A DNA stretch of 64,000 nucleotides. Source: Dissulfurirhabdus thermomarina. GTDB lineage: Bacteria; Desulfobacterota; Dissulfuribacteria; Dissulfuribacterales; Dissulfurirhabdaceae. This document shows, one piece after another, positions 25,534-47,209 of this stretch (the stretch's first letter is position 1; each line of letters begins with the position of its first letter). The notes under the pieces were generated by a model. It saw only the letters and a program-made list of their open reading frames with translations, was not told where the DNA came from and did no database searches. Both the position numbers and the translations under genes were made by a program. The stretch spans positions 1 to 64,000 of the forward strand of contig NZ_JAATWC010000011.1 of the NCBI RefSeq assembly GCF_012979235.1, given 5' to 3'.

Positions 25534-26135
25534 GACCCCGTGGTGGCCCAGTCGGAATCGGGGGGCTCGCCATGCTCCTCCTCGGCGTCCTCGGCATCGG
25601 CATGCTGGCTGCCGCCTGCGACCCGGTCACCCGACACGAGGTCCTCTCCACGGTCTTCGACGGGGTCCCGGAGCTGCCGCCGGCCGAGGAGATGTGCGAG
25701 GCCTACGCCCGCCGCAAGGTGGCCGAGGCCCTGGCCCCGCCGAAGTCCGAGGCCGGGGAGGCCGCGAAACCGGCCGAGCGGCGCTCGAGCCACCGGCCCT
25801 ACGCGGAAAAACGCTGCACCGACTGCCACGACTTCAGCACCCGGGTGGGGCTCCTCCATCCCCGCACCGAGCTCTGCTTCACCTGCCACAAGGGCTTCGT
25901 CCGGGGCCCCTTCGTCCACGGTCCCGTGGCCGTGGGCGACTGCCTCGCCTGCCATCTCCCCCACACGTCTCCGAACCCGGCCCTCCTCCGCGAGGACCGG
26001 ACCGCCATCTGCCAGAGGTGCCACCGGGAGGAACGGCTGGCGGCGGCCCTGCACCGGAAGGTGGTGGAACACGGCATGAACTGCGTGGACTGCCACGATC
26101 CGCACTACGGAGATGCCCGGTATTTCCTGAGATGA
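25530..26135 (+). CDS. pentaheme cytochrome lipoprotein
   Basis: 201 residues. Signal/lipobox-like LLGVLGIGMLAAAC, so probably a lipoprotein. The N-terminal third is heme-free and partly helical (EEMCEAYARRKVAEAL). Five CXXCH motifs follow: CTDCH, CFTCH, CLACH, CQRCH and CVDCH, ending in HDPHYGDARYFLR. GTG start overlapping the upstream stop. Placed just before the outer-membrane barrel gene, it fits the periplasmic-side cytochrome of a porin-cytochrome conduit. Confidence 0.85.
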   Translation: MRPRGGPVGIGGLAMLLLGVLGIGMLAAACDPVTRHEVLSTVFDGVPELPPAEEMCEAYARRKVAEALAPPKSEAGEAAKPAERRSSHRPYAEKRCTDCHDFSTRVGLLHPRTELCFTCHKGFVRGPFVHGPVAVGDCLACHLPHTSPNPALLREDRTAICQRCHREERLAAALHRKVVEHGMNCVDCHDPHYGDARYFLR

Positions 26136-26150
26136 TCCCGGGAGGCACCC

Positions 26151-28115
26151 TTGGGACGTCTCGGCGCGATAACCCTGGTGATCCTCGCCATGACCGTACA
26201 AACGGCCGCCGCGCAACAAAGGGCCCTCTTCCGGCTCCACCACTTCAACAACTGGCTGGACGTGACCTACGACTTCGACTACGGCCGCACCCGGACCAGG
26301 GGCGCCCCCGCCCTGGAATCCACCCAGCACCGGGTGGAGGAGACCCTCCACCTCGGGGCGGACTACGCCGTCTACCACCCCCGCTTCCTCAAGGGCTCCC
26401 TCTCGGCGGACCTCGGCCTCAAGCAGGACGTCTACCGCGAACCGGGCCGAAGCGGCTCCGACTCGGGGGAACTCGTGGAATACCGGGTGGACGGGGTCTT
26501 CCTGGAACGCCACCCCTACCCCGTGGACTTCTTCGCGGGCTCCGCCGCGAGCCGGGTCATCCGACGCTTCGCCAAGAGCTACGACCAGACCGTGGATGCC
26601 CGGGGGGCGGGGCTCACCCTCCGCTCCACCACCTTCCCCGCCCGTCTCCTCTACCGCTACCGGTCCACGGAGACCGAGGGGCTCGGCCTCGACCGCCTGG
26701 AGACCAGCGAGACGGCCGCCTTCACCGGCACCCACCGGGCCGGGGACCTCAGCCGGACCACCCTCTTCCTTTCCCATACCTCGGGGGGGACCACCTTCAC
26801 GGGCGCCGCCGCGCCGATCACCGTCTCCAGGAACACGGCCGCCGCCGCCAACAACCTCTCCTGGACCTCGGGGGAACGGGGCCGGAACCTGGACACCAGC
26901 TTCTCCTACGCCGAGGATACGGGAAGCAGCCCGACCCGGGCCGCCGACTGGGGGGAGAACATCGCCTGGGACCTCGGCCGGGCCCTCAAGTGGTCCCTCC
27001 GCTACGAGGGAAACCGGTACGAGACGGAGACCTTCGAGCGCCGGGAACACCGGGGCCAGACCTGGCTGGAGCACCGACTCTTCCAGAGCCTCACCACCCG
27101 GATCGGGGCCGGCGGCGCCAGGACCACGTACCTCTCCGGCCGGGAGACCCACCGCTCGGCCTTCCTCAACGTCTCCTACCGAAAGCGCCTCCCCGCGGCA
27201 AGCCGCCTGAGCCTCTTCTTCTCCCTGAATCGGGACGTCACCGACCGCGACGTGAAGGCCCGATTCCTGGAGGTGCGGGACGAGCGCCTCACCGTGGATC
27301 CCCTGGGAAACCTCCTGGAGAAGACGGACATCGATCCCGCCACCGTCCAGGTCTGGAACGAGACCCGGACGGTGCGCTACAGCCCCGGGGTGGACTACGA
27401 CCTCCACCCCGTGGGACGGCGCCTGGAGCTCCTCCCCCACCCCGGGGGAGGCGTCTCCGTGGGCGACGTCCTCTCGGTGGACTACACCTACACCGTGAAC
27501 CCTTCCATCCGGTACCGGACCGTCACCCATGGCCTCGGGGCCACGCTCCAGCTCTTCCGGAATCGCTACCGGGTCTTCGTGAACTACACCGGCAGCGACC
27601 AGGACCTCCTCGGGGGTTCGGACGAGGCCATCCGCCTGGACAACACCGCCGCCTTCGTGGCCGGCATGGAGGCCGCTTACCGGTTCCATACCCTCGGCCT
27701 CGAGTACGACCGCACCGACTCGCGCATCGAGCGCACGGACTCCACCAGCGCCTACTGGCGCTACGCCCGTTACCTCGGGGGACACTACGTGGGCTGGGCC
27801 GTCCGCGACACCTGGCGCCGCTTCGAGGACGCCGACCCGGGTGCCCGCAGCACCAGCGGCCACGACAACAGCCTGGGCGCCAGCGCCTTCTACCGGCGCC
27901 AGGCGGGACGGCGGAGCTTCTTCTCGGCGGAGGCCGAGTTCCTGGACTACCGGGGCCGGGGCCGCGACCGCGACACCCTGAACCTCCGGCTCACCTACCA
28001 GGTGCACCTGCGGCGGACGGAGCTGTCGCTCTTCGGCGAGACCACGTGGGAAGACTACGAGGACACCCGGCAGACCACGGCCCGGCTGGGGCTTCGGATC
28101 CGGAGGACCTTCTGA
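26151..28115 (+). CDS. outer-membrane beta-barrel of a porin-cytochrome conduit
   Basis: 654 residues from a TTG start 5 nt after GGGAGG. Signal peptide (ITLVILAMTVQTAAAQQ), then a long run of alternating polar/aromatic beta strands (LDVTYDFDYGRTRT, LSADLGLKQDVY, FVNYTGSDQDLL) and a C-terminal Phe (RLGLRIRRTF), as in transmembrane barrels. There is no plug, peptidase or POTRA domain. Flanked by the 5-heme lipoprotein and the 7-heme cytochrome, it most likely forms the sheath that lets hemes cross the outer membrane. The family is not one I can name exactly. Confidence 0.82.
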   Translation: MGRLGAITLVILAMTVQTAAAQQRALFRLHHFNNWLDVTYDFDYGRTRTRGAPALESTQHRVEETLHLGADYAVYHPRFLKGSLSADLGLKQDVYREPGRSGSDSGELVEYRVDGVFLERHPYPVDFFAGSAASRVIRRFAKSYDQTVDARGAGLTLRSTTFPARLLYRYRSTETEGLGLDRLETSETAAFTGTHRAGDLSRTTLFLSHTSGGTTFTGAAAPITVSRNTAAAANNLSWTSGERGRNLDTSFSYAEDTGSSPTRAADWGENIAWDLGRALKWSLRYEGNRYETETFERREHRGQTWLEHRLFQSLTTRIGAGGARTTYLSGRETHRSAFLNVSYRKRLPAASRLSLFFSLNRDVTDRDVKARFLEVRDERLTVDPLGNLLEKTDIDPATVQVWNETRTVRYSPGVDYDLHPVGRRLELLPHPGGGVSVGDVLSVDYTYTVNPSIRYRTVTHGLGATLQLFRNRYRVFVNYTGSDQDLLGGSDEAIRLDNTAAFVAGMEAAYRFHTLGLEYDRTDSRIERTDSTSAYWRYARYLGGHYVGWAVRDTWRRFEDADPGARSTSGHDNSLGASAFYRRQAGRRSFFSAEAEFLDYRGRGRDRDTLNLRLTYQVHLRRTELSLFGETTWEDYEDTRQTTARLGLRIRRTF

Positions 28116-29506: not shown

Positions 29507-30093
29507 CCGCCGCGCCGCCGCCCGCCGGCCGCCGCCGGACCCGCCTTGTGGACCGGCGCCTCCAGCTCTCCCTCGGCCTCGCCCTGGCCGCCGCCTGCGC
29601 GGCCGTGGCCGCCGTCACGGCCACGGCCGGATACCGGGTGCTGAAGGAGGCCCTGGAGGCGTGCCTCTACTGCCCCCACATCAAGGCGGACCGGTGCGGG
29701 GAGATCCTGGGGCCGGCCTTCTTCCGGGTGAACCTCGCCGCGGCGGCGGCCACGGCCGCGGCGGCGGCCGGGACGGCCGTCTGGCACGCCCGCCGCCTGG
29801 CCCGGTCCATGGAGCGCTTCCTGCCCCACCTGCGCGCCTGGAGCCGGTCGGGCCGCCCGGTGCCGGTCCCGGCGCGACCCGGCGACCCCCTCCTCCCGCT
29901 CCTGGACGACTACAATGGGGCCATGGGGCGCCTGCGGGCCCGGGCCGTCCGGGCCCGGCGGGCCCTCCTGGAGGCGCGCCGATACCTCGCCGCGGCGGAG
30001 GCCGCCCGGAACGACCCGGCCGGCGCCGCCCACGCCGCCCGCCGGCGGCTCGCCGCCGCCGCGGCCGCCCTGGAAGGAGACCTGCCGTCATGA
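29503..30093 (+). CDS. second two-span HAMP-like membrane protein
   Basis: 196 residues. Span 1 about 22-45 (LSLGLALAAACAAVAAVTATAG), a periplasmic loop with CLYCPHIKADRCGE (three cysteines, no heme motif), span 2 about 74-92, then a basic amphipathic HAMP-like region and a long helical Ala/Arg-rich tail. Partly like the protein at 28147, with more cysteines outside. GTG start overlapping the upstream stop, and its own stop overlaps the NHL lipoprotein start (ATGA). Confidence 0.65.
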   Translation: MTAAPPPAGRRRTRLVDRRLQLSLGLALAAACAAVAAVTATAGYRVLKEALEACLYCPHIKADRCGEILGPAFFRVNLAAAAATAAAAAGTAVWHARRLARSMERFLPHLRAWSRSGRPVPVPARPGDPLLPLLDDYNGAMGRLRARAVRARRALLEARRYLAAAEAARNDPAGAAHAARRRLAAAAAALEGDLPS

Positions 30094-31139
30094 TGCGACG
30101 ATTCCGCCGATGGGCCCGGCCCCTCTTGATCGCCGCCGTCCTGGCCGCCTGCGGCCCCATGCAGCGGACCGAGGCGCCGCCCGGTGCCGCGGAACTCCTC
30201 TGGCCGGCACCCCCCGCCGCCCCCCGGATCCGATGGGTGGGGGAGATCCGGGACCCCCGGGACGCCGGCGTCCGTCCCGGCCTCTGGGACCGGGTGAAGA
30301 ACTTCCTGCTGGGGGGGGAGAAGGGTCGGATCGCCCGGCCCTACGGGGTCCTCCACGACGAGGCGGACCGGCTCTTCGTGGTGGACGTGGCGGGACGGGC
30401 CGTCCACTGCATGGACCGCGGCCGGGGCCTGGCCGTCACCGTCCCCCGGCGCCGCGAGGACAACCCCCTCGCCAGCCCCATCGGCATCGCGGAAGACGCC
30501 TCCGGGCGGGTCTTCGTGACCGACTCCGAGACGGGCCGCATCTACGTCTTCACCCCGGGCGAATGGGTGCTCCGGCCCTTCACCCCCTTCCGCCTGGGAC
30601 GTCCCACCGGCATCGCCTGCGGCACGGACCGGGGCCTGATCTACGTGGCCGACACCACCGCCCACGAGGTGGTGGCCCTCGGCCCGGACGGGCGGCCCCG
30701 GTTCCGGTTCGGGGGGCGCGGCACGGGCCCCGGGCGGTTCAACTTCCCCACGGACCTCTGGGTGGACCGGGAGGGGCTTATCTACGTGACCGACGCCCTG
30801 AACGCCCGTATCCAGGTCTTCGACCCCGAGGGCCGGTTCCTCCGCCAGATCGGCCGGCCCGGGAAAAGCCCCGGCTGCTTCGCCAAGCCAAAGGGCGTGG
30901 CCGTGGACGGCGAGGGCCACGTTTACGTGGCCGACGCCCTCTTCGACGCGATCCAGGTCTTCGACCGGGAAGGCCGGCTCCTCCTGGTCTTCGGCGAGAG
31001 CGGCCACCGGCCCGGTGAGTTCTGGATGCCCTCGGGGCTCTTCATCGACGCCGAGGACCGCATCTACGTGGCCGACACCTACAACCGGCGGATCCAGGTC
31101 TTCCAGTACCTGGACCGTGACGCCAACGGGTACGAGTGA
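30090..31139 (+). CDS. second NHL-repeat lipoprotein
   Basis: 349 residues. Lipobox VLAACG near residue 20, then six or so NHL blades such as YGVLHDEADRLFVVDVAG, IGIAEDASGRVFVTDSETG, DLWVDREGLIYVTDALNA and VAVDGEGHVYVADALFD. Paralogue of the protein at 24394, and like it adjacent to a cytochrome with OmcE-type motifs. That suggests each OmcE-type protein has its own propeller partner. ATG overlaps the upstream stop. Confidence 0.86.
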   Translation: MMRRFRRWARPLLIAAVLAACGPMQRTEAPPGAAELLWPAPPAAPRIRWVGEIRDPRDAGVRPGLWDRVKNFLLGGEKGRIARPYGVLHDEADRLFVVDVAGRAVHCMDRGRGLAVTVPRRREDNPLASPIGIAEDASGRVFVTDSETGRIYVFTPGEWVLRPFTPFRLGRPTGIACGTDRGLIYVADTTAHEVVALGPDGRPRFRFGGRGTGPGRFNFPTDLWVDREGLIYVTDALNARIQVFDPEGRFLRQIGRPGKSPGCFAKPKGVAVDGEGHVYVADALFDAIQVFDREGRLLLVFGESGHRPGEFWMPSGLFIDAEDRIYVADTYNRRIQVFQYLDRDANGYE

Positions 31140-31140
31140 T

Positions 31141-32802
31141 ATGGGCCCCATGAAACCGGCACCACCGCTCCGCGTGGTCCTCCTCGCCCTCGGGGCGCTT
31201 CTCGCGGCCGCCGGCCCGGCCCCGGGCGGCGACGTGGTCCACAGCCCCCACAACCTCTCCGCCAGCGGCGGCGGCGGCCTCCACGACCTCAAGGCCCCGG
31301 AGGAGAAACGGGTCTGCATCTTCTGCCACACCCCGCACCACGCCACCCACGTCACCCCGCTCTGGAGCCGCGAGCTCTCCACCCGGGTCTACGACCTCTA
31401 CCGGTCCTCCACGCTCAAGGCCGCCCCGGGCCAGCCCACGGGGGCCTCCCGGCTGTGCCTGAGCTGCCACGACGGCACCATCGCCCTGGGCCAGCTGAAC
31501 GGCAGCTACACCATCAGCACCCTGGGGCCCATCCCGCCCGGCCCCACCAACCTGGACGACCCCGAGCACTCCCTCCGGGACGACCACCCCATCTCCTTCG
31601 CCTACACGCCGGACCTCGCCCTGGGAAACGAGCTGGCGGACCCCTCGCTCCTGCCCGCCCGGGGCATCAAGCTGGAAGGCGGCCGCCTCGAGTGCACCGC
31701 CTGCCACGACCCCCACGACAACCGGTACGGCAGATTCCTGGTGATGGATGACACCGACTCCCGCCTCTGCATCCAGTGCCACGAGAAGACCGGATGGGAC
31801 CAGTCCCTCCATCCCCATCCCCAGGACGCCCTGGCGGCGCCGGTCTTCTGCGAGGCCTGCCACGCGCCCCACAACGCCGACCAGCCCGTCCGCCTCCTCC
31901 GGGGCGTGACGGAACAGGCCACGTGCCTGGCCCGGTGCCACAACGGGAGCGGCAACGGCACCGACGTCTCCGGCCTCTTCGGCGCCGCGGTGGCCTCGTC
32001 CCATCCCCTCGACTACGCCGAGGGGATCCACGACGCGGCGGAAGACCCCCTCGCCGCGCCGAAGCACGTGGAATGCGCCGACTGCCACAACGGCCACAGA
32101 GTCAAGGACCAGGCCGCCGTCCCGCCGGCGGTGGAGGGCGCCCTGGTGGGCGTCTCGGGCGTGGACATCACCGGGTCGGTGGTGGCGGAGGCGAGCCGGG
32201 AGTACGAGGTCTGCTTCCGCTGCCACGCCGACAACTCCTTCGTCTCGTCCACCGCGGTGCCCCGGGCCCTCCAGGAGGTGAACGAGCGGCTCCGGTTCGA
32301 CCCCGCCAACCCCTCCTACCACCCGGTGGCCGCCATGGGGCGGGGAACCAACGTGCCGAGCCTCCGGCCGGAGTACACCACCTCCAGCCTCATCTACTGC
32401 ACCGACTGCCACAACAGCGACCAGAGCGCCAAGGCCGGAGGCGCGGGGCCCGACGGGCCCCACGGCTCCAACTTCCGGCATATCCTCATCGCCCGTTACG
32501 AGGCCGACACCTACCCCCTCCCCTACAGCGAGGGCGACTACGCCCTCTGCTTCCGGTGCCACGACCCGGCCGTGCTCCTCGGCCCGGGATCGGCCTTCCC
32601 CAAGCACGGGCTGCACGTGGTGAGCCGGGGCGTCCCCTGCTCGGTCTGCCACGACCCCCACGGCGTCCCGGTGGCCGACGGCGCGACCCCCAGGGCCAAC
32701 GCCCACCTCGTGAACTTCGACACCCGGTTCGTGCCCTTCGGCACCTACGACGCCCAGGCCCGGAGCTGCACCGTGAGCTGCCATGGCACCAAGTCCTACT
32801 GA
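31141..32802 (+). CDS. dodecaheme cytochrome with OmcE-like N-terminal module
   Basis: 553 residues, with a signal peptide. Residues about 35-220 repeat the OmcE-like order: CIFCHTPHH, PLWSREL, YRSSTLKA, CLSCHDGTIA, DDHPISFAY, CTACHDPHDN and CIQCHEK. Residues about 225-553 add eight more motifs: CEACH, CLARCH, CADCH, CFRCH, CTDCH, CFRCH, CSVCH and CTVSCH, two of them CX3CH. Total twelve. It could cap or anchor a filament of the tetraheme protein through its shared head (inference). Starts 1 nt after the NHL stop; ATGs at 31141 and 31150 are both possible. Confidence 0.85.
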   Translation: MGPMKPAPPLRVVLLALGALLAAAGPAPGGDVVHSPHNLSASGGGGLHDLKAPEEKRVCIFCHTPHHATHVTPLWSRELSTRVYDLYRSSTLKAAPGQPTGASRLCLSCHDGTIALGQLNGSYTISTLGPIPPGPTNLDDPEHSLRDDHPISFAYTPDLALGNELADPSLLPARGIKLEGGRLECTACHDPHDNRYGRFLVMDDTDSRLCIQCHEKTGWDQSLHPHPQDALAAPVFCEACHAPHNADQPVRLLRGVTEQATCLARCHNGSGNGTDVSGLFGAAVASSHPLDYAEGIHDAAEDPLAAPKHVECADCHNGHRVKDQAAVPPAVEGALVGVSGVDITGSVVAEASREYEVCFRCHADNSFVSSTAVPRALQEVNERLRFDPANPSYHPVAAMGRGTNVPSLRPEYTTSSLIYCTDCHNSDQSAKAGGAGPDGPHGSNFRHILIARYEADTYPLPYSEGDYALCFRCHDPAVLLGPGSAFPKHGLHVVSRGVPCSVCHDPHGVPVADGATPRANAHLVNFDTRFVPFGTYDAQARSCTVSCHGTKSY

Positions 32803-32925: not shown

Positions 32926-34116
32926 ATGAACCGGTTCCTCTCCCTTACCGTCTTCCTGGCCTTGTCCATGGCCGCGCCCGCCACGGGCGCCGCCCCGGCG
33001 GCCGCCCCCCCCGGGAAACCGGCCGCCGGAACCGCCCGTCCCAGGCCCTGGGAACCCCGGGAACGCGTGAAGATCCGGGACAAGAGCGGCTACTGCATCG
33101 AGTGCCACCGGGAGAAGACGCCGGGCCTCTTCCGGTCCTGGGTGGAGGGCCCCCACGCCCGGATCGGCGTCGGCTGCAACGACTGCCACGGGGCCTCCCC
33201 CTCGGACAAGGACGCCTTCCTCCACCAGCAGCGCTTCTACATCACCACGGCGGTCACCCCCTTCGACTGCGCCCGCTGCCACCCGGACGCCATCCGCGAC
33301 TTCTACAACAGCGGCCATGCCGAGGCCCGGATCCGCCTCGAGAAGATGGGGCCGGACGACCCCCGGTACCCGCTCGTGGCCCCTTACCGGGACGGCGGCT
33401 TCGCCGAATGCGCCGGATGCCACGGGGCCAGGGTCCGCCTCGACGAGGACCGGCGACCCGGCCTCGGCACCTGGCCCAACGCCGGGATCGGCCGCCTCAA
33501 CCCGGACGGGAGCCGCGGCAACTGCGCCGCCTGCCACCCGGCGCACCGCTTCGCCGCAGAGGACGCGCGGCGGCCCGAGGCCTGCCTCGGCTGCCACGAC
33601 GGGCCCGACTACCCCGAGGGGGCCATCTACCTCCACTCCCCCCACGGCCGGGTGGCCGGCATGGGCCGGGCCCGGGACGACCTCTCCCGCCCCGGCTTCT
33701 TCTGCGACACCACCCGGTACGAGGGGCCCACCTGCGGCCTCTGCCACTTCAACGGGGCGGGCCGCGACCTCGTCACCCGACACAACCCGGCATGGCGGCT
33801 CACCAGGGACCTCCTCCACCCGGAGGCGCCCGAGAAGGGCCGGCCCGAGGACCTCCGGGGAAACATGGATCGCGTCTGCCAGCAGTGCCACGCGGCCTCC
33901 GTGGTGAAACGCTTCTTCGCCTCGGCCGACGAGAAGCTCGCCCGCTACCAGTCGGAGACCGTCCGCCCCAGGCTCGCCGGGTTCCGGAAACGGCTGAAGC
34001 ATGCCCGCGGGAAGAAGCGACGGCGCCTGCTGGAGGAATACGGCGCCTTCCTCCGGGAGGCGAAGGCCTTCCGCCTCAACCTCTACATGGGGGTCCACGG
34101 CAGGTCCGGGCGCTAG
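32926..34116 (+). CDS. octaheme cytochrome, hydroxylamine-oxidoreductase-like
   Basis: 396 residues, with a signal peptide (about 1-22). Eight CXXCH motifs: CIECH, CNDCH, CARCH, CAGCH, CAACH, CLGCH, CGLCH and CQQCH. The motif spacing, YNSGHAEARI, SPHGRVAGMGRA and TCGLCHFNG with RHNPAWRLT before the eighth heme recall the HAO-type octaheme family found in many anaerobes, where the enzyme may work as a reductase. I see no obvious tyrosine cross-link site, but that needs alignment. The C-terminus is a basic helix (FRKRLKHARGKKRRRLLEEY). Last gene of the operon; the 123-nt gap before it shows no promoter. Confidence 0.72.
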   Translation: MNRFLSLTVFLALSMAAPATGAAPAAAPPGKPAAGTARPRPWEPRERVKIRDKSGYCIECHREKTPGLFRSWVEGPHARIGVGCNDCHGASPSDKDAFLHQQRFYITTAVTPFDCARCHPDAIRDFYNSGHAEARIRLEKMGPDDPRYPLVAPYRDGGFAECAGCHGARVRLDEDRRPGLGTWPNAGIGRLNPDGSRGNCAACHPAHRFAAEDARRPEACLGCHDGPDYPEGAIYLHSPHGRVAGMGRARDDLSRPGFFCDTTRYEGPTCGLCHFNGAGRDLVTRHNPAWRLTRDLLHPEAPEKGRPEDLRGNMDRVCQQCHAASVVKRFFASADEKLARYQSETVRPRLAGFRKRLKHARGKKRRRLLEEYGAFLREAKAFRLNLYMGVHGRSGR

Positions 34117-34574: not shown

Positions 34575-37500
34575 ATGAGGAGGAAGAGAGGAAGGCAGTG
34601 CCTCGTCCCGGCCGGGATGGCGCTCGCCCTGGGCCTGGCGTTCTCCATGCCGCCGCCCGGCGCCGCCATGGCCGCCGTCCCCGAGCACGCGCACATCGTA
34701 CTCCGGGACCACCTCGGAAACCCCATCAGCCCGTCCGCCGCCACCGACAACGCCTTCAGCGTGAAGGGGACCTGCGGCTGCTGCCACGACGGCACCAACG
34801 GGCTCCTCTCGTACGACGAGTTGGAGCGCCACTCCTACCACGCCCAGCTCGCCGCCAACGAGATCCGCGGCTGGAACGCCTGGAACCCGGACTCCCCGGA
34901 CAAGTTCCGGAGCGGTCCCGCCGCCAAGGGGAAGAACTGGGTCCAGAGCCCCGGCCACGTGGGGAAGTGGTGACCGCCGTCGGCGCGCCAGATGGCGAGG
35001 CTGTTCCTGGACGGAGCAGGATCTTCCTACAACGCGACCACGGCCACCTACCTCGACAACCCCTTCACCACCATGACGCCGTACGACTACGGGAGCCTCC
35101 TGGAGTTCCAGCGCCGGGTGGACAACTCCATCCCCGGCCAGATGCGGGACTGCGGTGAATGCCACGCCGGCGGCGGGGCCATGGAGTACGTGCCGGCGCC
35201 CACGCCCGGCGCCCGGGTGCCGCTCCGTGACATCGCCACGGCCGACGTCAACGGGGCCGGCCCCATCACCGCGGCCAACGTGACGGCCTTCAACTACTAC
35301 GTGGACATCTACGACGACGACGGGGACGGCAACCGGTCCGAGGTCCTCTACAACGACTTCACCCAGACCGGGGTCCTCGAGTTCGACTGCCTCCTCTGCC
35401 ACCTGGAGGGTTACGACTGGGAGGCCCGGAAGGAGGCCGTCCGCCACGGCAACTTCGATGCCTCGCGCACCGTGGGGGCCGGGCTGGGGATCCTGGCCGG
35501 CACCAACGGCCGGAGCGTGGTCTACGATCCCTCCCTGGTGGAGGACAACGGGACCGTGCTCAAGCTGGGTCTCTCCGTGGCGGCCAGGATCATGCCCACG
35601 CCGCCCACGGCCAACTGCGCCTCGTGCCACTTCGACGCCCACCAGGTGGACTGGAAGAAGCGCGGCGACGTCTGGGCCGGAAACGCCCTGAACGAGGTGC
35701 ACCTGTCCATCGGCTGCATGGGCTGCCACAAGCGCAAGGACGAGGACTTCTCCAACGTGGGCACCGACGGGGCCCCGTCCAGCACCCTGCTCGGCCAGTG
35801 TGACCCGGCCAAGGGAGACGCCCCGTACAGCTCCCTCTGGAACAAGACCGACAACACCGTGAAGACCTGCGCGGACTGCCACCTCCGGGGCGGCGACGGC
35901 GGCCAGAGCTTCGCCGCGCCGAACCCCGCCAACGCCCACGCGGCGGCGGGGCTCACCGCCAAGGTGTGCCAGGACGGCACCGACGGAGTGGCGGACGCGA
36001 GCCACATCGACATCATCGCCTGCTCGGCCTGCCACGTCCGCAAGCTCAACCTCGGCGGGCCCTTCACCGGGGGTGCCCTGGTGGACGCCACCGGCCCGGA
36101 TGCCGAGGGCCGCCTGGCCGACCACGAGAACCCCTACGTCACCCGCACCATGGAACGCAACGTTGCGGTCTCCTGGTACAAGGGGAGACTCGTGGCCTCC
36201 AACATCCTGACCACCCTCTTCTGGCGGGACAAGAACGACGTGGACTTCGACGCCAACCGCGACGGCCGAGCCGGCGGCATGGACGCCCTCCTGCCCACCC
36301 ACGTCCGGACCATCGACGAGATCTACGGCGTGGGACCGGTCACGGAGGACGGCAACGTCTCCGGTGCCGAGCTCGACCAGCGAATCGCCCAGATCGACGC
36401 CGAGATCGAGGCCCTCACCGGGGTCTCCGGCGCCGCCAAGATCACGCGCCTCTCCTTCATGGCCGTGCCCTTCCGGGTGAACCACAACGTCTCGCCGGCC
36501 TGGGCCGCCTGGGGCGCCGGGGGCTGCGGCGACTGCCACGCCCCGGGGGCCGGCTTCTACAACGGCGCCTACCGCCTCAAGGGCGAGGGGCTCGAGGTGA
36601 GCTTCGGCGGCCAGGTGACGCCCTTCACCAAGGCCAACGCCTTCACCGACCCCACGGACTTCCACCCGAACCTCAAGGACAAGGCCGGGGTCCGCTCCAT
36701 CCCGGTGAAGGCCGCCTTCCAGCAAGGAACCCTCCGCGACGTCGACCGGAGCGAACTCCTCTACGAGAACACCTTCAAGACCCGGAACACCGCCTGGGCG
36801 GACAGCCTCACCAGCGCGCCCATCACCTTCCCCGACGGGACCACGGCCACCACCAAGGGCTGGCTCTTCAAGGTGGAGGCCAAGGACCTCTTCACGGGTG
36901 ACGTGGTGACCCGGAGCAAGATCGTCGGGACCCATGCCGCCAACGTGGACGAGCTGGTGGCGGCCCTCGGCCCGGCCTACACCGACAACCTGCCGGAGTT
37001 CACGGTGACGGCCGACAACGCCACCGGCACCATCACCATCGCGGCGAAGCCCGGCTACCGGGTCCGGCTCCACCCGCAAAGCAGCGCGGGGGCCTTCGGC
37101 ATGGCGGGGGCGGTCTGGACGGACCACCCGGTCACCGCCGTGAACGGCACGGCCTTCGCGGGCCGGGCCGACTGGGTGGCCTACCTCGACCGCCAGAACG
37201 ACCCGGCGGCCGTGGGGATCGGCATCGACCCCGTGGCGGTGATCGCAAGCATCAACGGCATCGTCCCAGATGCCAACGGCACCCCCATCGAGGTGGAAGT
37301 GGGCCAGCCCGTGACACTCGCGGCCGACACCACCGTGAACACCGCCGGCACCTTCACCTACAGCTGGATCTCCAGCGACGCGGCGGGGGAGGTCCTCCCC
37401 GGGGCCACGGTCTCGAAGACCTTCTCCACCGTGGGCACCTGGCTCGTCACCCTCAAGGTCACCGACGAGGAGGGAAAGCTCTCCCAGGTCTCCCAGAAGG

Positions 37501-37808: not shown

Positions 37809-37810
37809 CC
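37215..37810 (+). repeat. 596-bp near-identical repeat, copy 1 (PKD-like cassette)
   Basis: Encodes the whole C-terminal PKD-like region of cytochrome 1 plus the stop. Matches 43323-43918 with a single difference that I can see (A/G near 37250), whereas the heme regions of the two proteins are clearly divergent. The third paralogue carries a more diverged version (46597-47186). Confidence 0.9.
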
Positions 37811-37844
37811 CCGGGCCCTTCTCGACCTGGGTCCCAAACCAGAA

Positions 37845-37904: not shown

Positions 37905-38609
37905 TCAGCCCGCCCCCGGCTCCTTCCAGAGGTCCAGGTCGACGAGGCCGATCCGGGCGGCGTAGCGGACGAGCTCCATCTGGCTGTGGACGCCGAGCTT
38001 CCCCATGAGGTTGCTCCGGTGGTTCTCCACGGTCTTCGGCTTGATGTGGAGACGCGCGGCGATCTCCCGGGAGGGGACCCCCTCCACGATGAGCCGCATG
38101 ACCTCCTGCTCGCGGCGGGAGAGGAGGCCGTAGCGGTCGTCCCGCACCCGCGAGGCCCGATCCGGGGCCTCGAGGAGCCGCCCCAGGACCTCCCGGGAGA
38201 CCGCCCCGTCGAGGAAGTGCTCCCCGGCCAGGAGCGCGTCGAGGGCCTGGATGAGCCGTTCGCCCGTGGCCTCCTTCACGATGTAGCCGTGGGCCCCCGC
38301 CCGAAAGGCCGCGGCGATGTACTCGAACCGCCCGTGCATGCTGACCACCAGGATGCGGGCCGAGGGGGCGGCCCGGCGTAGCCCCCCGATGAGCTCGTGG
38401 CCGTTGGCGTCCGGGAGGGCGAGGTCCAGGGTCACGAGGTCGGGACGGAGGGCGGCGGCCAGGTCCAGGGCCTCGCGCCCGGTCCCGGCCTCTCCGGCCA
38501 CCTCGAAGCGCCCGCTCCGCCGGATGAGGGCCTTGAGCCCTTCCCGGAAGAGCGGGTGGTCATCCACCAGGAGGACGGTCGGCTGCTTGGATTCCACGTC
38601 GTTCTCCAC
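37905..38609 (-). CDS. NarL/LuxR-type response regulator
   Basis: 234 residues. Receiver VLLVDDHPLFREGLKALI with phospho-acceptor Asp in LVTLDLALPDANG and Lys in YIVKEATGE. C-terminal LuxR helix-turn-helix LSRREQEVMRLIVEGVPSREIAARLHIKPKTVENHRSNLM. GTG start at 38609, 50 nt inside the kinase gene; a later GTG at 38597 is also possible. With its kinase it sits between two selenocysteine cytochrome genes, convergent to the first and divergent from the second. Confidence 0.92.
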   Translation of the reverse strand: MENDVESKQPTVLLVDDHPLFREGLKALIRRSGRFEVAGEAGTGREALDLAAALRPDLVTLDLALPDANGHELIGGLRRAAPSARILVVSMHGRFEYIAAAFRAGAHGYIVKEATGERLIQALDALLAGEHFLDGAVSREVLGRLLEAPDRASRVRDDRYGLLSRREQEVMRLIVEGVPSREIAARLHIKPKTVENHRSNLMGKLGVHSQMELVRYAARIGLVDLDLWKEPGAG

Positions 38610-40023
38610 CGTTTCTGCGGACGGCCCGGACGGGCTGGAACGGGACCTCCACCGAGACGAGGGTGCCCCCGCCCGGGCGCGAGACCACCCGGAAGCTCCC
38701 CCGGAGAAGATCCACCCGCTCGGCCATCCCGGCGAGCCCCAGGCCGAAGCGGGCCTCCCGGGAAGCGGCCGCCACGTCGAACCCCCGGCCGTCGTCCTTG
38801 ACCTGGAGCCGGAGCACCGGGTGCGTCGCCACCATCCGGACGCTGACCCGGCGGGCCCCCGCGTGCTTGACCACGTTGTGGAGCGCCTCCTGCACGATGC
38901 GGAAGAGGTTGATGGCGGTCTCCTCGTCCACCCGGACCCCGGCCATGCCGGCGGTCTGGAAGTCCACCCGCAGCCCGTGCCGCTCCGAGAGCTTGCCGCA
39001 GTACTCCGCGAGTCCCTCCACCAGGCCGAGTCGCTCCACCGCCGCGGGACGGAGGCCGGAAGAGAGCTCCCGCACCGCCCGGATGGAGCCCTCCACGTCC
39101 TCCCGGAGCCGGGCCGCCTGCTCCCCCAGGGGAGAGGCCGCCCCCCCGAGGTCCTCGTGCAACATGTCGAGGCCGATCTTGACGGCGTTCAGGCGCTGGC
39201 CGAGGTCGTCGTGGAGCTCCCGGGAGAGCCGGCGGCGTTCCGCCTCCTGGAGGGTGAGGAGCCGCCGCGACAGCGCCCGGGCGCGCTCTTCCATGGCCTT
39301 GCGAGCGCTGATGTCCCGGGCCACCACCAGCTTGGCGGGCCCTTCCACGCCCGGCATCCGGACGGGAAGCTCGGCCACCGAGAACCAGGCGCCGCTCCGC
39401 CGGTCGCGGCACTCCCAGTGGAAGGCGCCCCCGGGGGTCAAGGTGCCGGGCGGATGGCAGTCGGGGCAGGGCCGCGTCCGCCCCCAGCAGGCCCGGTAGC
39501 AGGGAGACGCGGCCAGATCCGCCCGGGCGTCCTCCTGCATGCGCCGGTTGGCGAAGGCGATCCGGTAGCCCGGGCCCACCACGTAGACACGGTCCTCCAT
39601 GGCATCGAAGAGGAGGGACAGGGTCCGCTGGGAGGCCGCCATGACGTCGGAGATGCGCTTGCACTCCGTGGCGTCGTGGAGGACCCCCATGACGGCGGCC
39701 CCGCCGCCCATGGCCACGCGGCGGGCCCGCACCTCGATCCAGAAGGGATCCCCGCCCCGCCGGCGGGAAGGCTGGCCCCAGGCGACCTCCTCCGAGACAC
39801 CCGACAGGAGCCTGTCGTGGTTCTCCCGGAAGAAATGGGCGCTCGAGGGGTCCGGGTAGACCTCGCCGAGGAAGTCCCGGCCCGCCAGGCAACGGCCGGG
39901 GTCGAGGCCGAAGACCTGGGAGAAACGCGGATTGGCGAAGAGGAGCCGGCCGTCGCGGACCACGTAGAGGCCGTCGGGAAGGCCGTCCGCCACGGCCCGG
40001 AAGAGCGCGTCCCGTTCCGTCAT
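38560..40023 (-). CDS. cytoplasmic PAS-PAS histidine kinase (NarX-type HisKA_3)
   Basis: 487 residues without membrane spans. PAS 1 about 5-125 (LYVVRDGRLLFANPRFSQVFGLDP). PAS 2 about 135-260, which contains a cysteine cluster SPCYRACWGRTRPCPDCH with a CXXCH at its end. HisKA_3 has ERRRLSRELHDDLGQRLNAV (phospho-acceptor His) and the ATPase domain has FRIVQEALHNVVKHA, DDGRGFD and GLGLAGMAERV. It partners the downstream regulator. The cysteines could sense redox state or bind metal; c-type heme is unlikely in the cytoplasm. ATG start at 40023. Confidence 0.9.
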   Translation of the reverse strand: MTERDALFRAVADGLPDGLYVVRDGRLLFANPRFSQVFGLDPGRCLAGRDFLGEVYPDPSSAHFFRENHDRLLSGVSEEVAWGQPSRRRGGDPFWIEVRARRVAMGGGAAVMGVLHDATECKRISDVMAASQRTLSLLFDAMEDRVYVVGPGYRIAFANRRMQEDARADLAASPCYRACWGRTRPCPDCHPPGTLTPGGAFHWECRDRRSGAWFSVAELPVRMPGVEGPAKLVVARDISARKAMEERARALSRRLLTLQEAERRRLSRELHDDLGQRLNAVKIGLDMLHEDLGGAASPLGEQAARLREDVEGSIRAVRELSSGLRPAAVERLGLVEGLAEYCGKLSERHGLRVDFQTAGMAGVRVDEETAINLFRIVQEALHNVVKHAGARRVSVRMVATHPVLRLQVKDDGRGFDVAAASREARFGLGLAGMAERVDLLRGSFRVVSRPGGGTLVSVEVPFQPVRAVRRNGGERRGIQAADRPPGG

Positions 40024-40138
40024 CTCGCCCCGGCGTCTCCTCACCCACCCCAGGACAGTGTGCCCCAAGGCGGCCCGAAAGTCAAAAGGAATGGATATAT
40101 CAGAAAATTTCGCACATTCCGGCCCCTTTTCCCGCCTT

Positions 40139-40172
40139 GCGGGAAATCCCGCCCACCTGGGCCATATACCCC
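40139..40172. promoter_or_regulatory. paired inverted repeats upstream of selenocysteine cytochrome 2
   Basis: GCGGGAAATCCCGC (40139-40152) and GGGCCATATACCCC (40159-40172), centres 20 bp apart (two helical turns), about 200 bp upstream of the sigma-54-type promoter. GGGCCATAT also occurs at 23225. The 671-nt gap 40024-40694 carries no gene that I can support. Confidence 0.42.
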
Positions 40173-40361
40173 GTGATATGCCGCGCCGCAAACGCGATTC
40201 CACCCGCGAGTCACCCCCATCCTTCCCGGGAACCTGGGGCGGTCACCCCATGAAGCTCCGGGCGGCGGCCTTGCCGGCCGGCGGCGGCCGGCCCCTGGAT
40301 CCCCGCGGGGACGGGGCCTTCGAGCCACCGCCCCCCCGGCGGCCGCCGCCGGGTCTGGGGG

Positions 40362-40378: not shown

Positions 40379-40694
40379 TTTACCCTGGACGGCCCTTTCC
40401 CCCGTGATTCCACCGACGGCCGGGGCCGCAACGCCGCCCTCCCCCCATCTCGGGCGGTGCCGCGGGATCGGCCCAGAGGAGGTGATGCACACCGAGTGAT
40501 GCAGCGTGGCGCCGGGCCGCCGGCAGTCGCGCCCCGGCCGGGACGGCGCGGCCCACGGGGTGGATACGCCCCGCCCGCCCGTCCGCCGTGCAGATCATCC
40601 GCGAGTTTCACCGATGAATGGAGGCCGGCCGGCGGCGCCACCGCGAGCGGAGCGCCTTCCGGCGCCGGGCCTTCGGAGAGAGGAGTCAATGGAT

Positions 40695-43600
40695 ATGGAC
40701 ACGAGACGAGGACACCGGGCCTCGGGCCTGTGGCTCGCCGGGAGCCTCCTCGCGGCCTTCGTGCTGGTGGCCGGGACGGCCTTCGCGGCCCATCCCCCCA
40801 TCCAGCTCAAGACCTACGAGGAGCTCGGCGCCATGGACGTCGGCCCGAACATGCCCCTTCCCTACAGCCCGAAGCAGACCTGCAGCACCAGCGGCTGCCA
40901 CGACGGCACCACCGTGGTGAACGGAAAGGTGCTGCTCAGCTACGGCGACATCGAGGCCCATGCCTTCCACTCGCAGCTTGGGAAAGACGAGTGGAAGGAC
41001 ACCGCCGACGGCCAGTTCGACTTGACCGCCAGCAAGCCCTGGAATCAGACCGGGGCCATGTTCGGCAAGTGGTGACCGCCGTCCCTTCGCCAGGTGGCGA
41101 ATTTCATGGATCAGGATCCGGCGACCCCGGGCGTCCAGGACAAGGTCTACGCGGACAACGCGAGCTTCCTGGGCGCCGTGGACATGGCCGCGTGGGACAT
41201 GGCCATGGCCTGCGGCAGCTGCCACGTCGGCGGCGGGTTCGTCGAGAGTGACCGGAACGGCCAGCGGCTCTCCATCCGGGCGCTCACGGACACCACCATC
41301 AACGCCTACATGAACTACGTCTCCGAGGACTGGGACCCGGCCACGGGCCTTCCCAACTTCAGCGTCAAGCGGGCGCCCTGGACCTACCCGGTGGAGCTCG
41401 ACGGCAACACCAGCACCACGGAATGGATGCCCAACGTCCGCGAGATGGACTGCTTCTTCTGCCACCTCGAGGGCTACAACAACATGATGAGCTCGGTCAT
41501 CGTCCAGATGGGCCTCCTGAACGCCGCCCCCATGGCGGGTTCCGGCCTCATGGACATGGCCACGGGCGGCTACAACACGGCCATGGTGGACGCCAACGGC
41601 ACGCTGCTGCCCTGGGTGCTGGACCGGATCAAGGGCACCCCGCCCAGCGACAACTGCCGCCAGTGCCACATCCCGCAGTCCATGGCGACCCTGGCGGACA
41701 TGATGACCAACTTCCTGGCCGCGGCCCCCATGTCGTACAACCCGGCCAATCCCATGTCGCTCACGGGTCTCGAGATGCCGGCCTACGACTTCGACGCACC
41801 GTGGGTGGACGGGACGGGACCGCTCTACTTCAACGCCAGCGACCAGAACGCCATCAAGAAGGCCATGGTGCCCTTCCCGCGCTCCGACTTCTTCAAGCGG
41901 GGCGACATCTGGGACGACGCGAGCCAGGAGGTCCACATCGGGCTCGGGTGCGCGGGCTGCCACATGGACACCGCCTCCCTGAGCCCCGACATGACCCAGT
42001 GCGACCCGGGGAGAGGCTACGGCCGCCTCTCAGGCGTCCGGCCCTCGTCCAGGAACACCGTCAAGCGGTGTGAGCACTGTCACATCACCGGGAAGAACGC
42101 CGACGGCGTGCCCATCCAGACCTTCGGCGCGCCCGACCCCACCCCCGCCCACAAGGCGGCGGGGTTGACGGCCCTCATCACCACGGCCGTGGGCGTCAAG
42201 GACGACGGAAACGGCACCCCCGTGGAATACACCTTCCCGGGCAGCCACCTCGACGTCATCGACTGCACCGTCTGCCACAACCACAAGAAGAGCATGGCGG
42301 TGCGGGCCCTCGACGCCACCAGCGGCAACCGCTACCCCACCATGATCGGGTTCGATCTCTCCAAGGGCATGCTCGGCATGTTCTCCGCGCCGGATCCGTG
42401 GGGGATGTTCGGCGGCGAGCTCCAGGAATGGACCCCGCTCCGGACCTGGTGGCAGAACGGCGACAAGACGCTGCCCGACGGCTCCATCAACACCGCGTGG
42501 CGCCGGAAGATCTACAACATCAACATGATCACCGCGGTGTTCTGGAACAACCGGGACCCCTCGGTGGACGCCAACGGCGACGGCGCCAACGCCACGCCCA
42601 CCAACTTCGACCCGTGGATCCAGCGTGACCTCAAGGCCGGGATGACCTTCGCGGCCAGCGGCTTCGCGCCCATCCCCGTCGGCTTCGGCAGCGATCCTGC
42701 CTACGCCAGCGCCTACGACGCCAACGGCACCTTCACGGGCGCCTGGGACTGGGTCGGCGTCTACGGCGGCAACGTCATCTTCACCCGCCCGGACCAGATC
42801 GCGGCCTACAAGGCCTACCGGACGAGCCTCGGCGGGAAGCCCTGGGACGGCACCGAGCTCCTCTACTTCGGGGCCCCGTTCCAGGTCACCCACAACATCG
42901 CCGACACCAGCCGCTTCGCCCTGGGCAAGCGGCGGGCCGACGGCAGCTACGGCTGCAGCGACTGCCACGCGCCGGGCGCCGGGTTCTTCGACGGCGACTA
43001 CGACATGACCGGAAACGGCGTCAACGCCAGCAAGGTGGGCGCCAACATGATGATGGAGCCCGCCGCCGACTTCGAGGTGACCGGCTACAAGGGGGACCTC
43101 CGGACCGCGTCGGAGCTCCAGACCAAGGACGGCGCGGGTGCCGATCTCCCCTTCGAGGCCAACGTCACCTGCCCGGACAACGACCCCCGCGGTTGCGTCC
43201 AGACCACCGACATGGACCGCGGCGAGGCCCTCTACCCGCACCTGGCGGAGACCGACCCCGCGGGATTTGCGGCCAAGCGGGCCTACCTCACGGACAACGC
43301 CACCATGACGGCGGCCAACTACGGGATCGGCATCGACCCCGTGGCGGTGATCGCGAGCATCAACGGCATCGTCCCAGATGCCAACGGCACCCCCATCGAG
43401 GTGGAAGTGGGCCAGCCCGTGACACTCGCGGCCGACACCACCGTGAACACCGCCGGCACCTTCACCTACAGCTGGATCTCCAGCGACGCGGCGGGGGAGG
43501 TCCTCCCCGGGGCCACGGTCTCGAAGACCTTCTCCACCGTGGGCACCTGGCTCGTCACCCTCAAGGTCACCGACGAGGAGGGAAAGCTCTCCCAGGTCTC

Positions 43601-43916
43601 CCAGAAGGTGAGCGCGGTGGCGCCGGCACCGGCGGCGGACATCTCCTACGTGGGCACCGCAAGCGGCGTCCAGACCATCCGCTTCGCCAACCTGCCCGCC
43701 CACACCATGCTCTACATCTTCTGGGGTGACGGGCTGAAGTCACGGGTCTACGACACCACGTCCCCCAAGGACGTGGACCACGACTTCCGCCTCTACGCCA
43801 AGTACGACAAGGGCGACCACTACGAGTTCAAGGTCACGGCCTACGTCTACGACGGCAGCACCCGGGTGGACGTCAAGCAGGCGGTGATCTCCATACCCAA
43901 GGCCGACAACCCCTAA
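40695..43916 (+). CDS. selenocysteine-containing octaheme cytochrome 2 with PKD-like domain (reads through TGA)
   Basis: Predicted 1073 residues if TGA 41073-41075 is Sec127. The ATG at 40695 is 9 nt after AGGAG; the ATG at 40689 is too close. Signal peptide, then heme 1 as CX4CH (CSTSGCH), then GKW-U-PPSLRQ, CGSCH, CFFCHLEGYN, CRQCH, CAGCH, CEHCH, CTVCH and CSDCHAPGAGFF. D398-F-F-K401-R-G-D parallels the motif in cytochrome 1. PKD-like region from about residue 877, essentially identical in DNA to cytochrome 1. The reading frame is uninterrupted on both sides of the TGA and no SD precedes the second half. Likely exported; function unknown, reduction of a sulfur or nitrogen oxyanion is a guess from the family. 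Confidence 0.85.
41073..41104 (+). promoter_or_regulatory. selenocysteine TGA with SECIS-like hairpin
   Basis: TGA at 41073-41075, 16 nt, then loop AGGT (41092-41095) closed by TTCGCC (41086-41091) and GGCGAA (41096-41101); A-T closure would leave GG as the tip. A G-rich tip at this distance is what SelB recognises in E. coli fdhF. Better paired than the copy at 34971. Confidence 0.68.
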
Positions 43917-43918
43917 CC
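43323..43918 (+). repeat. 596-bp near-identical repeat, copy 2 (PKD-like cassette)
   Basis: Second copy of the segment at 37215-37810. Identity stops abruptly at both ends: upstream the proteins diverge at once, downstream only TAACC is shared. This suggests recent gene conversion or cassette duplication rather than simple ancestry. Confidence 0.9.
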
Positions 43919-43955
43919 AACCTCACGGAAGGGCCAGCACCTTCCTCCAACAGCC

Positions 43956-44216: not shown

Positions 44217-47186
44217 ATGGCGAAGAAGATCCTTTTTCTCCTTGTGCTGGCCTGCTCGGTCCTTCCGCCGGCGAGCCGGCTGGCTCTGGCCGACCATCCC
44301 GTCTACGGGGAAGACCCCCGGATGCCCGACCAGATCTACCTCGTCGGCAGGGGCGGCGCCCTGGTGAGCCTCGACGATCCGGCCGACGGGACCTACGACG
44401 GCCTGCCCCCCTACGACCCGGAGGCCACCTGCCGCGGCTGCCACGGTTCCATCTTCAACAACGAGGTGGCCAACTTCCATGCCTGCCTCGGGTGCAACGA
44501 CCTGGTGCTCCCCCGCGGCACCCTCGACCCCGCCCGCCCGTGGATCTTCGGTCCGAGGAAGTTCGGCGGGTGGTGCCCCACCGGTTTCCGGCAGTGGGGC
44601 GACATCACCAAGACCTTCGCCAGCGAGGCGGAGTTCCTGGCCCAGGTGGACATGGGCTTCTACGACTTCATCCTCCAGTGCGGCACCTGCCACGTGGGCG
44701 GCGGCCCGGGGGTGCGCCACCCGCTGACCCTGGCCGAGCACGACGACGTCAACCGGGACCTCTTCTCCCTCACCGTCCAGAACTACTACGTCAAGGACGG
44801 CAACGTGACCCTGGCCAACTGGGTGCAGCTCGGCGGGGGCGGCGCCGGGACCCTGAAGCTCGACTGCCTGGTCTGTCACCTGGAGGGTTACGACATCCTG
44901 GCGAGGAACGAGCAGATCGTCCGGTACGAGAAGTTCAAGAACGCCCCGACGCTGGGGGCGGGCCTGGCCGCCATGGACCCCGCCGCGCCGGACGGCGCCA
45001 GCATGGCCTACGACGCCTTCTACGTGGCGCGCAACGGCAGCAACCACCTCTACCTCGGGCGGAACTTCCTCCAGCGGATCAAGCGCACACCGCCCTCCGC
45101 CAACTGCCTGAACTGCCACATGCCCAGCGTGGTGGAGGGGGAAGACGCGGCGGTCTCCGGTGACGCCTGGAAGCGGGAATTCTTCAACACCGGCACGGTC
45201 CCCAGCGACGACCCCGAGAACCCCGATCCCCTGGCCGCCGCCAACAGGCGCCCGGCCGGCTTCCGCAACGACTTCCTCAAGCGGGGTGCCACCTGGCGCA
45301 CCGACGAGGTGCACAAGTTCATGGAATGCAGCGGCTGCCACCTCCAGACCGCCAAGTTCCAGACCGACAACGCCACGGCCCCCGGCTACCTCCACAGCCC
45401 GGGCAAGGGGTACGACCCCTTGAAGGATCCCATTGGCGGCGAGGGAACGGTCAAGTTCTGCACCGACTGCCACGTCCTCTTCGGAGACCTCGACGGCGAC
45501 GGGGTGAAGGACATCGAGATCTTCGCGCCGCCGGACCCGCGGCCGCGGCACGCGGCGGCGGGGCTCTCCGCGGCCATCATCGGGACCGCCCGCCGGATCG
45601 GGGCCAACGGGCAGGAGGAGACCTTCCGCGGCAGCCACATCGACGTGATCGCCTGCACCGTCTGCCACGTCTGGAAGCAGTACACGGCGGCCCGGGCCTA
45701 CGACTTCAGCACCGGCGGCCGCTTCTACACCTTCGACGGGAACCCGCCGGACGTGGCCGGCGGCCCGGAGACCGTGACCATCGCCTACACCTGGCGCGAG
45801 AACACCCCCGTCCGGGTATTGCCCGACGGCTCGCCGAACCCCATGTGGCGCCGGCAGGTCCATCCCTTCAACTACGTCACCTCCATCTACTGGAACAACA
45901 CGGGCACCAAGGACGCCAACGGCGACGGCTTCCGCTCCGGGGACTCCAACGGCGGCACCACCGTCCTCCTCGACCCCTTCTTCGGCCGGGTGGCCCGCTC
46001 CCACTTCCGTTACGACTTCGTCAACACCGCCAACGACCGGGTGCCCAGCGGGCTGGCGGGGGTCCCCGCCTACGACGAGCGCAGCGAGTGGGCCATGGCC
46101 AACGCGGCCGGCGGGGTCATGTTCACGCGGCCCGGGGAGATCGACGCCTACCAGGCCCTTCTCTCCGGCGAAGACCCCGGCTACGCCCCCCAGCTCCGGC
46201 TGGAGGCGAAGCCCTACCTCCTGGTCCACAACGTGATGCCCATCAAGGGGCCCAACGGGCACGTCCTCGGCAAACCCGTCCGCGACGACGCGGGCAACAT
46301 AGTGGCCTACGGCTGCGGCGACTGCCACGGACCCTCCGGGGTCGTCTACAACGGGGAGGTGAACCTCCTCGGCAAGGGCATCGACATCGCCACCGGCGCG
46401 GAGGCCCCCCTCGCGCTCTCCTGGAGCGATCCGGGCGACGTCTCCGCCGAGGCCGAGTACTGGGATGCGTTCGGCAACCGCCACGTGCTGGACTGCACAT
46501 CGGGCAGCACGCTCCGGAACCCGAGGCGCTACGAGCTGTTGGGATTGTCCGCCACCGAGGCGGCCGGCCTGGACCTAGTCACCGCGGCGGACAACGGGAT
46601 CGGGGTGGACCCCGTGGCGGTGATCGCGAGCATCAACGGCACCGTCCCCGACGGGAGCGGCACCCCCATCACGGTCCGGGTGGGCGAGCCCGTGACGCTC
46701 GCGGCGGACACCAGCGTGAACACCGCCGGCTACATCGACTACGGATGGATCTCCAGCGATGCGGCGGGGGAGGTCCTCCCCGGGGCCACGGTCTCGAAGA
46801 CCTTCTCCACCGTGGGCACCTGGCTCGTCACCCTCAAGGTGACCGACGAGGAGGGAAAGCTCGCCCAGGTCTCCCAGGAGGTGAACGCCGTCAACCTACC
46901 GGCGGCGGACATCTCCTACGTGGGAACCGTAAGCGGCGTCCAGACCATCCGCTTCGCCAACCTTCCGGCCCACACCATGCTCTACATCTTCTGGGGGGAC
47001 GGGCTGAAGTCACGGGTCTACGACACCGTCTCACCCAAGGACGTGGACCACGACTTCCGCCTCTACGCCAAGTACGACAAGGGCGACCACTACGAGTTCA
47101 AGGTCACGGCCTACGTCTACGACGGCAGCACCCGGGTGGACGTCAAGCAGGCGGTGGTCTCCATCCCCAAGGCGGACAACCCCTGA
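44217..47186 (+). CDS. octaheme cytochrome 3, cysteine paralogue of the selenoproteins
   Basis: 989 residues, uninterrupted. Signal peptide, heme 1 CRGCH, a degenerate CLGCN, then GGW-C120-PTGFRQ where the other two have the TGA. Then CGTCHVGGG, CLVCHLEGYD, CLNCH, CSGCH, CTDCH, CTVCH and CGDCH (eight CXXCH in all). D352-F-L-K355-R-G is conserved. PKD-like domains from about residue 794 are related to, but not identical with, the other copies. GGGAGAGGAG precedes the ATG. Motif order (Cys/Sec before heme 2, DxxK after heme 4) fits the octaheme tetrathionate reductase family. This gene fixes the reading of the TGA codons in its neighbours. Confidence 0.9.
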   Translation: MAKKILFLLVLACSVLPPASRLALADHPVYGEDPRMPDQIYLVGRGGALVSLDDPADGTYDGLPPYDPEATCRGCHGSIFNNEVANFHACLGCNDLVLPRGTLDPARPWIFGPRKFGGWCPTGFRQWGDITKTFASEAEFLAQVDMGFYDFILQCGTCHVGGGPGVRHPLTLAEHDDVNRDLFSLTVQNYYVKDGNVTLANWVQLGGGGAGTLKLDCLVCHLEGYDILARNEQIVRYEKFKNAPTLGAGLAAMDPAAPDGASMAYDAFYVARNGSNHLYLGRNFLQRIKRTPPSANCLNCHMPSVVEGEDAAVSGDAWKREFFNTGTVPSDDPENPDPLAAANRRPAGFRNDFLKRGATWRTDEVHKFMECSGCHLQTAKFQTDNATAPGYLHSPGKGYDPLKDPIGGEGTVKFCTDCHVLFGDLDGDGVKDIEIFAPPDPRPRHAAAGLSAAIIGTARRIGANGQEETFRGSHIDVIACTVCHVWKQYTAARAYDFSTGGRFYTFDGNPPDVAGGPETVTIAYTWRENTPVRVLPDGSPNPMWRRQVHPFNYVTSIYWNNTGTKDANGDGFRSGDSNGGTTVLLDPFFGRVARSHFRYDFVNTANDRVPSGLAGVPAYDERSEWAMANAAGGVMFTRPGEIDAYQALLSGEDPGYAPQLRLEAKPYLLVHNVMPIKGPNGHVLGKPVRDDAGNIVAYGCGDCHGPSGVVYNGEVNLLGKGIDIATGAEAPLALSWSDPGDVSAEAEYWDAFGNRHVLDCTSGSTLRNPRRYELLGLSATEAAGLDLVTAADNGIGVDPVAVIASINGTVPDGSGTPITVRVGEPVTLAADTSVNTAGYIDYGWISSDAAGEVLPGATVSKTFSTVGTWLVTLKVTDEEGKLAQVSQEVNAVNLPAADISYVGTVSGVQTIRFANLPAHTMLYIFWGDGLKSRVYDTVSPKDVDHDFRLYAKYDKGDHYEFKVTAYVYDGSTRVDVKQAVVSIPKADNP

Positions 47187-47209
47187 GCCGGTTCGCCGGC
47201 CTGCCGCAC

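Follow-up and report, generated by a model that had tools for sequence, protein, structure and literature searches.

The gene cyt2, found in the window (the whole 64,000-nt stretch of Dissulfurirhabdus thermomarina DNA that was analysed), almost certainly encodes a selenocysteine-containing octaheme cytochrome c and belongs to a new, widespread, and uncatalogued branch of selenocysteine (Sec) cytochromes, which we consider real. We are highly confident that SelB and tRNA-Sec decode its UGA codon 129 as Sec, with a SECIS element inside the coding region as the signal. The case for Sec in the protein, drawn from genome sequences, combines the in-frame TGA, a covarying SECIS-like hairpin, Sec/Cys exchange, the decoding machinery, and selective constraint. 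The features of cyt2 and its two paralogues are listed below (OTR, octaheme tetrathionate reductase).

40689..43916, plus strand: cyt2, octaheme cytochrome c with an in-frame TGA (predicted Sec129), a signal peptide recognised by eye, an OTR-like heme core, and a C-terminal PKD-like domain
41073..41075, plus strand: cyt2 TGA codon, almost certainly read as selenocysteine, in the motif GKW-U-PPSLRQ
41086..41101, plus strand: putative cyt2 SECIS hairpin TTCGCC-AGGT-GGCGAA, 16 nt from TGA to loop
34575..37808, plus strand: cyt1, paralogous octaheme cytochrome c with an in-frame TGA (predicted Sec133), sister gene 6 kb upstream of cyt2
34971..34973, plus strand: cyt1 TGA codon, predicted to be read as selenocysteine, in the motif GKW-U-PPSARQ
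34986..34997, plus strand: putative cyt1 SECIS hairpin core CGCC-AGAT-GGCG, with a shorter stem than in cyt2
44217..47186, plus strand: cyt3, Cys paralogue with GGW-C-PTGFRQ and a normal TGA stop at its end
37215-37811 (cyt1), 43323-43919 (cyt2), and 46596-47189 (cyt3): near-identical 3' tails

The cyt2 gene occupies one frame that ends in TAA, the TGA being its sole internal stop; position 40695 is the second ATG, and the ATG at 40689 is in the same frame. Eight heme sites are present in each of the three cytochromes. Heme 1 of cyt2 is of the CX4CH type (CSTSGCH, 40881-40901), and a strict CxxCH count therefore returns only seven. Widened heme 1 sites occur in several Sec genes, i.e., CX4CH in cyt2 and locus L026, and CX8CH and CX14CH in a pair of genes from genome G362 (L022 and L088). 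Annotation under translation table 11 splits cyt2 into two ORFs (40506-41075 and 41094-43916), in agreement with the TGA being a real stop that is followed by an independent gene or a pseudogene in decay. Such a reading is very improbable, since seven hemes persist in the downstream part, which is constrained in many genomes, Cys homologues read straight through, the frame is kept across the TGA in many families, and the hairpin after the TGA covaries. The standard-code reading halves these genes, and a widespread respiratory protein of the phylum is overlooked as a result.

The three paralogues align end to end, through the TGA site, and Cys120 of cyt3 (44574-44576) occupies the position of the TGA in cyt1 and cyt2. 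Beside heme 1, cyt3 also has a heme-like motif without His, CLGCN (44484-44498). Core amino-acid identity between cyt1 and cyt2 is only ~37%, and their common TGA is thus old rather than a recent copy. The 3' ends contrast with the diverged cores: over the final 600 bases, cyt1 and cyt2 show 100% identity in two long blocks, with cyt3 at 88-95%, which points to recent gene conversion of a PKD-like tail. The sequence-only reading had recognised in cyt2 a second octaheme cytochrome with a TGA at the homologous position, in frame with a long heme-bearing second half, and had proposed an alignment of cytochromes 1 and 2 through the TGA; the single frame and the alignment bear this out. Its description of two independent divergent genes is correct with respect to divergence, but the TGAs are homologous and so not of independent origin. 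Its judgement that the shared TGA is not an error, being hard to explain by chance mutation or sequencing error, agrees with the recurrence across the phylum given below; the mechanism, selenocysteine insertion, was not named there.

Of 395 genomes of the phylum searched with the core profile, 41 hold relatives. Most of these relatives have a single TGA within the matched region, located in GK[WF]-U-PPSxRQLA or a close variant. This phylum-wide recurrence led us to reject sequencing error and pseudogene formation. Cys was observed at the TGA residue in two separate clades, characterized by GNW-C-PTYNRQL and GGNW-C-SPAPLYRQLA, and in the tree the latter forms the sister clade of Sec genes bearing GGRW-U-TPAPVFRQLA. 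Sec and Cys are thus exchanged at the exact residue, both within subfamilies and on the tree, and the family shows the combination used as a selenoprotein criterion, an in-frame TGA with Cys homologues at the same residue. A few relatives have neither residue at the site (Ser and others), and Sec or Cys is therefore not essential to every member. The genomes of these relatives (L036, L037, L040, L044, and L046) retain SelA, and the idea that loss of Sec tracks loss of SelA was rejected. In many distant relatives the C-terminal part is a cytochrome b of the formate-dehydrogenase type, in place of the PKD-like tail of the window proteins, which suggests a quinol link in those relatives.

Purifying selection acts on both sides of the TGA. 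For close pairs from other genomes, where dS is measurable, dN/dS varies between 0.04 and 0.22 upstream and between 0.10 and 0.26 downstream (e.g., 0.12/0.12, 0.15/0.16, and 0.22/0.26 for upstream/downstream), well below 1 on either side. The comparison of cyt2 with its G362 orthologue gives 0.34 upstream and 0.44 downstream, and amino-acid identity is similar upstream and downstream. The ratio of ~1.1 obtained for cyt1 versus cyt2 on both sides is uninformative, as this pair is too diverged and codon-biased. These ratios provide the synonymous versus non-synonymous comparison that the sequence-only reading had suggested; a downstream loss of constraint in related genomes, which it regarded as contrary evidence, was looked for and did not occur.

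The genome (2.46 Mb in 34 contigs, 99% complete) encodes SelB (378 bits), SelA (603 bits), a tRNA-Sec with a UCA anticodon (75 bits), and two copies of SelD, the selA, selB, selC, and selD set expected where a bacterial selenoprotein gene is decoded. One SelD copy (L098, G000:C10:60502-61425) has an in-frame TGA of its own and is probably a Sec protein itself. All 21 Sec genes tested carry a hairpin with an AGNT loop directly after the TGA, the distance from TGA to loop being 16 or 22 nt. The bSECIS model describes a loop of 3-9 nt with G in the first two positions, a stem of 4-16 bp, a spacing of 16-37 nt, and an MFE of at most -7.5 (PMC13188914). The hairpins of the two Sec genes in the window conform to it, with stems of 4+ bp and energies of -8.6 and -11.8 kcal/mol; the cyt1 stem is short, a mismatch following 4 bp, and the G of its loop is followed by A. 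Across 16 distinct hairpin sequences, pairing is kept in 92.7% of pair cells, and three of the six pairs have changed on both sides; the covariation score was reached by none of 500 shuffles, with slid controls all far lower. The codon after Gln is TTG in 18, GTG in 2, and ATG in 1 of the 21 Sec genes, so that NTGGC is kept though the amino acid varies; TTG constitutes 11% of Leu codons in these loci. Six Cys genes have CTN or TGG after Gln, and the hairpin sought in Cys genes was not found. The SECIS argument rests on covariation and codon choice, because the hairpin energy z-scores are modest (mean -1.6 for Sec genes and -0.1 for Cys genes).

These observations also bear on whether the TGA might be read as another amino acid (e.g., Trp under a changed code) or passed by non-specific read-through. 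The residue before the TGA is Trp, and nothing specific speaks for such decoding, to which we give hardly any credence: the homologues carry Cys, not Trp, cyt3 uses TGA as a normal stop, and both a SECIS and the full Sec machinery are present.

The cytochrome genes lie in or beside an operon with the following conserved neighbours and adjacent genes:

25530..26135, plus strand: pentaheme cytochrome with doubled CXXCH, conserved neighbour
26151..28115, plus strand: 654-aa protein whose sequence resembles that of an outer-membrane beta-barrel, with a C-terminal Phe and no family match, conserved neighbour
29661..31139, plus strand: NHL beta-propeller protein, true start uncertain, conserved neighbour
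31015..32802, plus strand: decaheme cytochrome with doubled CXXCH, conserved neighbour
32926..34116, plus strand: octaheme cytochrome (PF13447 multi-haem), directly upstream of cyt1
37905..38609, minus strand: NarL-type response regulator, between cyt1 and cyt2
38560..40203, minus strand: PAS/HisKA_3 sensor kinase, between cyt1 and cyt2

The operon order, i.e., doubled-CXXCH cytochrome, barrel-like protein, NHL protein, decaheme cytochrome, (octaheme PF13447 cytochrome), and Sec cyt1, recurs wholly or partly in several other families (L048, L087-L091), and the PF13447 homologue adjoins the Sec gene in L048, L087, L090, and L091. In G362 the cyt1-type and cyt2-type Sec genes are adjacent. A 13-CxxCH cytochrome with doubled motifs (21624-22991) precedes the operon in the window. 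This setting suggests that respiration here uses an acceptor located outside the inner membrane. Since the genes lie in or beside an operon that encodes a barrel-like protein together with NHL propellers and multiheme cytochromes, their products are probably active at the outer membrane or beyond it.

None of the NCBIfam models reaches its cut-off against the whole protein; TIGR04315 (cut-off 375 bits) scores 25.1 bits with cyt1 and has no match in cyt2 or cyt3, and a phmmer search of the PDB with cyt2 returned no match. Profile comparison (hhalign) over hemes 4-8 pairs the family with OTR at 99.4% probability (99.1% for the wider set), and the OTR Lys-His-Gly, whose Lys is position 153 of the 1SP3 chain by counting, aligns with the invariant KRG of the GKWUPP family (K374 of the alignment). 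Catalysis in OTR takes place at heme 2, which has a conserved Lys as ligand (PMC11024163). The GKWUPP family represents a branch, within a known superfamily of cytochromes, that lies outside every family library searched. The predicted model of cyt2 (25 sequences) is poor, with a pLDDT of 50. A model of the relative L033 (pLDDT 68, pTM 0.70) matches 1SP3 with a Z of 10.2 over 313 residues (rmsd 4.3), the next entry having 3.1, and an OTR fold is predicted with high probability; a Foldseek search with the same model gave chance matches only, 1SP3 not being listed.

True OTR-family loci from the phylum have a TGA in 12 of 30 cases, at NNF-U (or NSF-U, NNY-U) before heme 2, and the remaining loci with an NNF-type motif have Cys there. 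Counted along the phmmer alignment, this position is residue 64 of the 1SP3 chain, Cys64, which we take to have a role in the OTR active site. Ten of the 12 TGA genes (L058, L061, L064, L065, L067, L069-L073, L075, and L077) share a strong hairpin, CTGGTGC-AGGT-GCACCAG, after the TGA, and two have another. The hhalign comparison of the heme 1-3 part alone has low confidence and does not pair the GKWUPP Sec with Cys64, and the L033 model is weak near the Sec site (pLDDT below 50 at 69-93). The GKWUPP Sec likely occupies the same spatial place as Cys64 of OTR.

We propose that cyt2 is an exported octaheme c-type cytochrome with Sec between heme 1 and heme 2. Electrons would travel through the successive hemes as far as heme 2; there the selenolate would attack or stabilise the substrate during its reduction; candidate substrates are a sulfur oxyanion such as tetrathionate, or other oxidised S, N, or Se species. 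The position of Sec at heme 2 is likely, and the chances of the catalytic mechanism itself appear evenly balanced. The less probable, though serious, alternative is that Sec is real but structural, a heme ligand, or metal-binding rather than a catalytic nucleophile at heme 2. Cys or Sec could ligate heme iron or a metal, some relatives without either residue keep eight hemes, and the octaheme sulfite reductase MccA, with its heme-copper type site, may offer a parallel for a metal-binding Sec. Against this, in the OTR family the catalytic heme, heme 2, follows Sec or Cys at a distance of about ten residues, and the retention of Sec over Cys in evolution usually signals redox catalysis. Redox sites that bring selenium next to heme have been little studied, and to our knowledge no heme-plus-selenolate active site has been characterised. 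Only tentatively do we extend the catalytic proposal to extracellular or outer-membrane selenoenzymes in which Sec, by the catalytic heme at the end of the conduit, might reduce an S, Se, or N compound outside the cell; the duplicated Sec copies and the Cys copy beside the conduit operon would then tune potential or substrate. The natural Sec/Cys/neither series within one family, together with the exchange at OTR residue 64, offers a direct test of the role of Sec in a multiheme reductase.

Three known systems are close to the proteins described here. The nearest is OTR (TIGR04315, S. oneidensis, 1SP3), whose eight hemes follow the order seen here. It too places Sec or Cys between its first two hemes, and its heme-2 ligand Lys aligns with the Lys after heme 4 of the window proteins. 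The Sec motif, in contrast, is GKWUPPSxRQ here and LNNFU in OTR, the putative SECIS elements are also different, and the window proteins are longer, with a C-terminal PKD-like domain. TIGR04315 is listed, without detail, as a GenBank-annotated Sec family in a 2026 review (PMC13188914). ExtKL of Geobacter (NF040886) is likewise a multiheme c-type cytochrome with a predicted Sec, encoded in a cluster of cytochrome and porin genes (PMC5877670), but it is pentaheme, and its model gives no match to the window proteins (E 0.001 for cyt1 and 0.1 for cyt2 and cyt3). The methanogenesis multiheme c-type cytochrome MmcA (TIGR04314) is related to OTR and weakly matches cyt1 (36.6 bits, below the cut-off of 250), whereas it has seven hemes and is without heme 2 and its Lys (PMC11024163).
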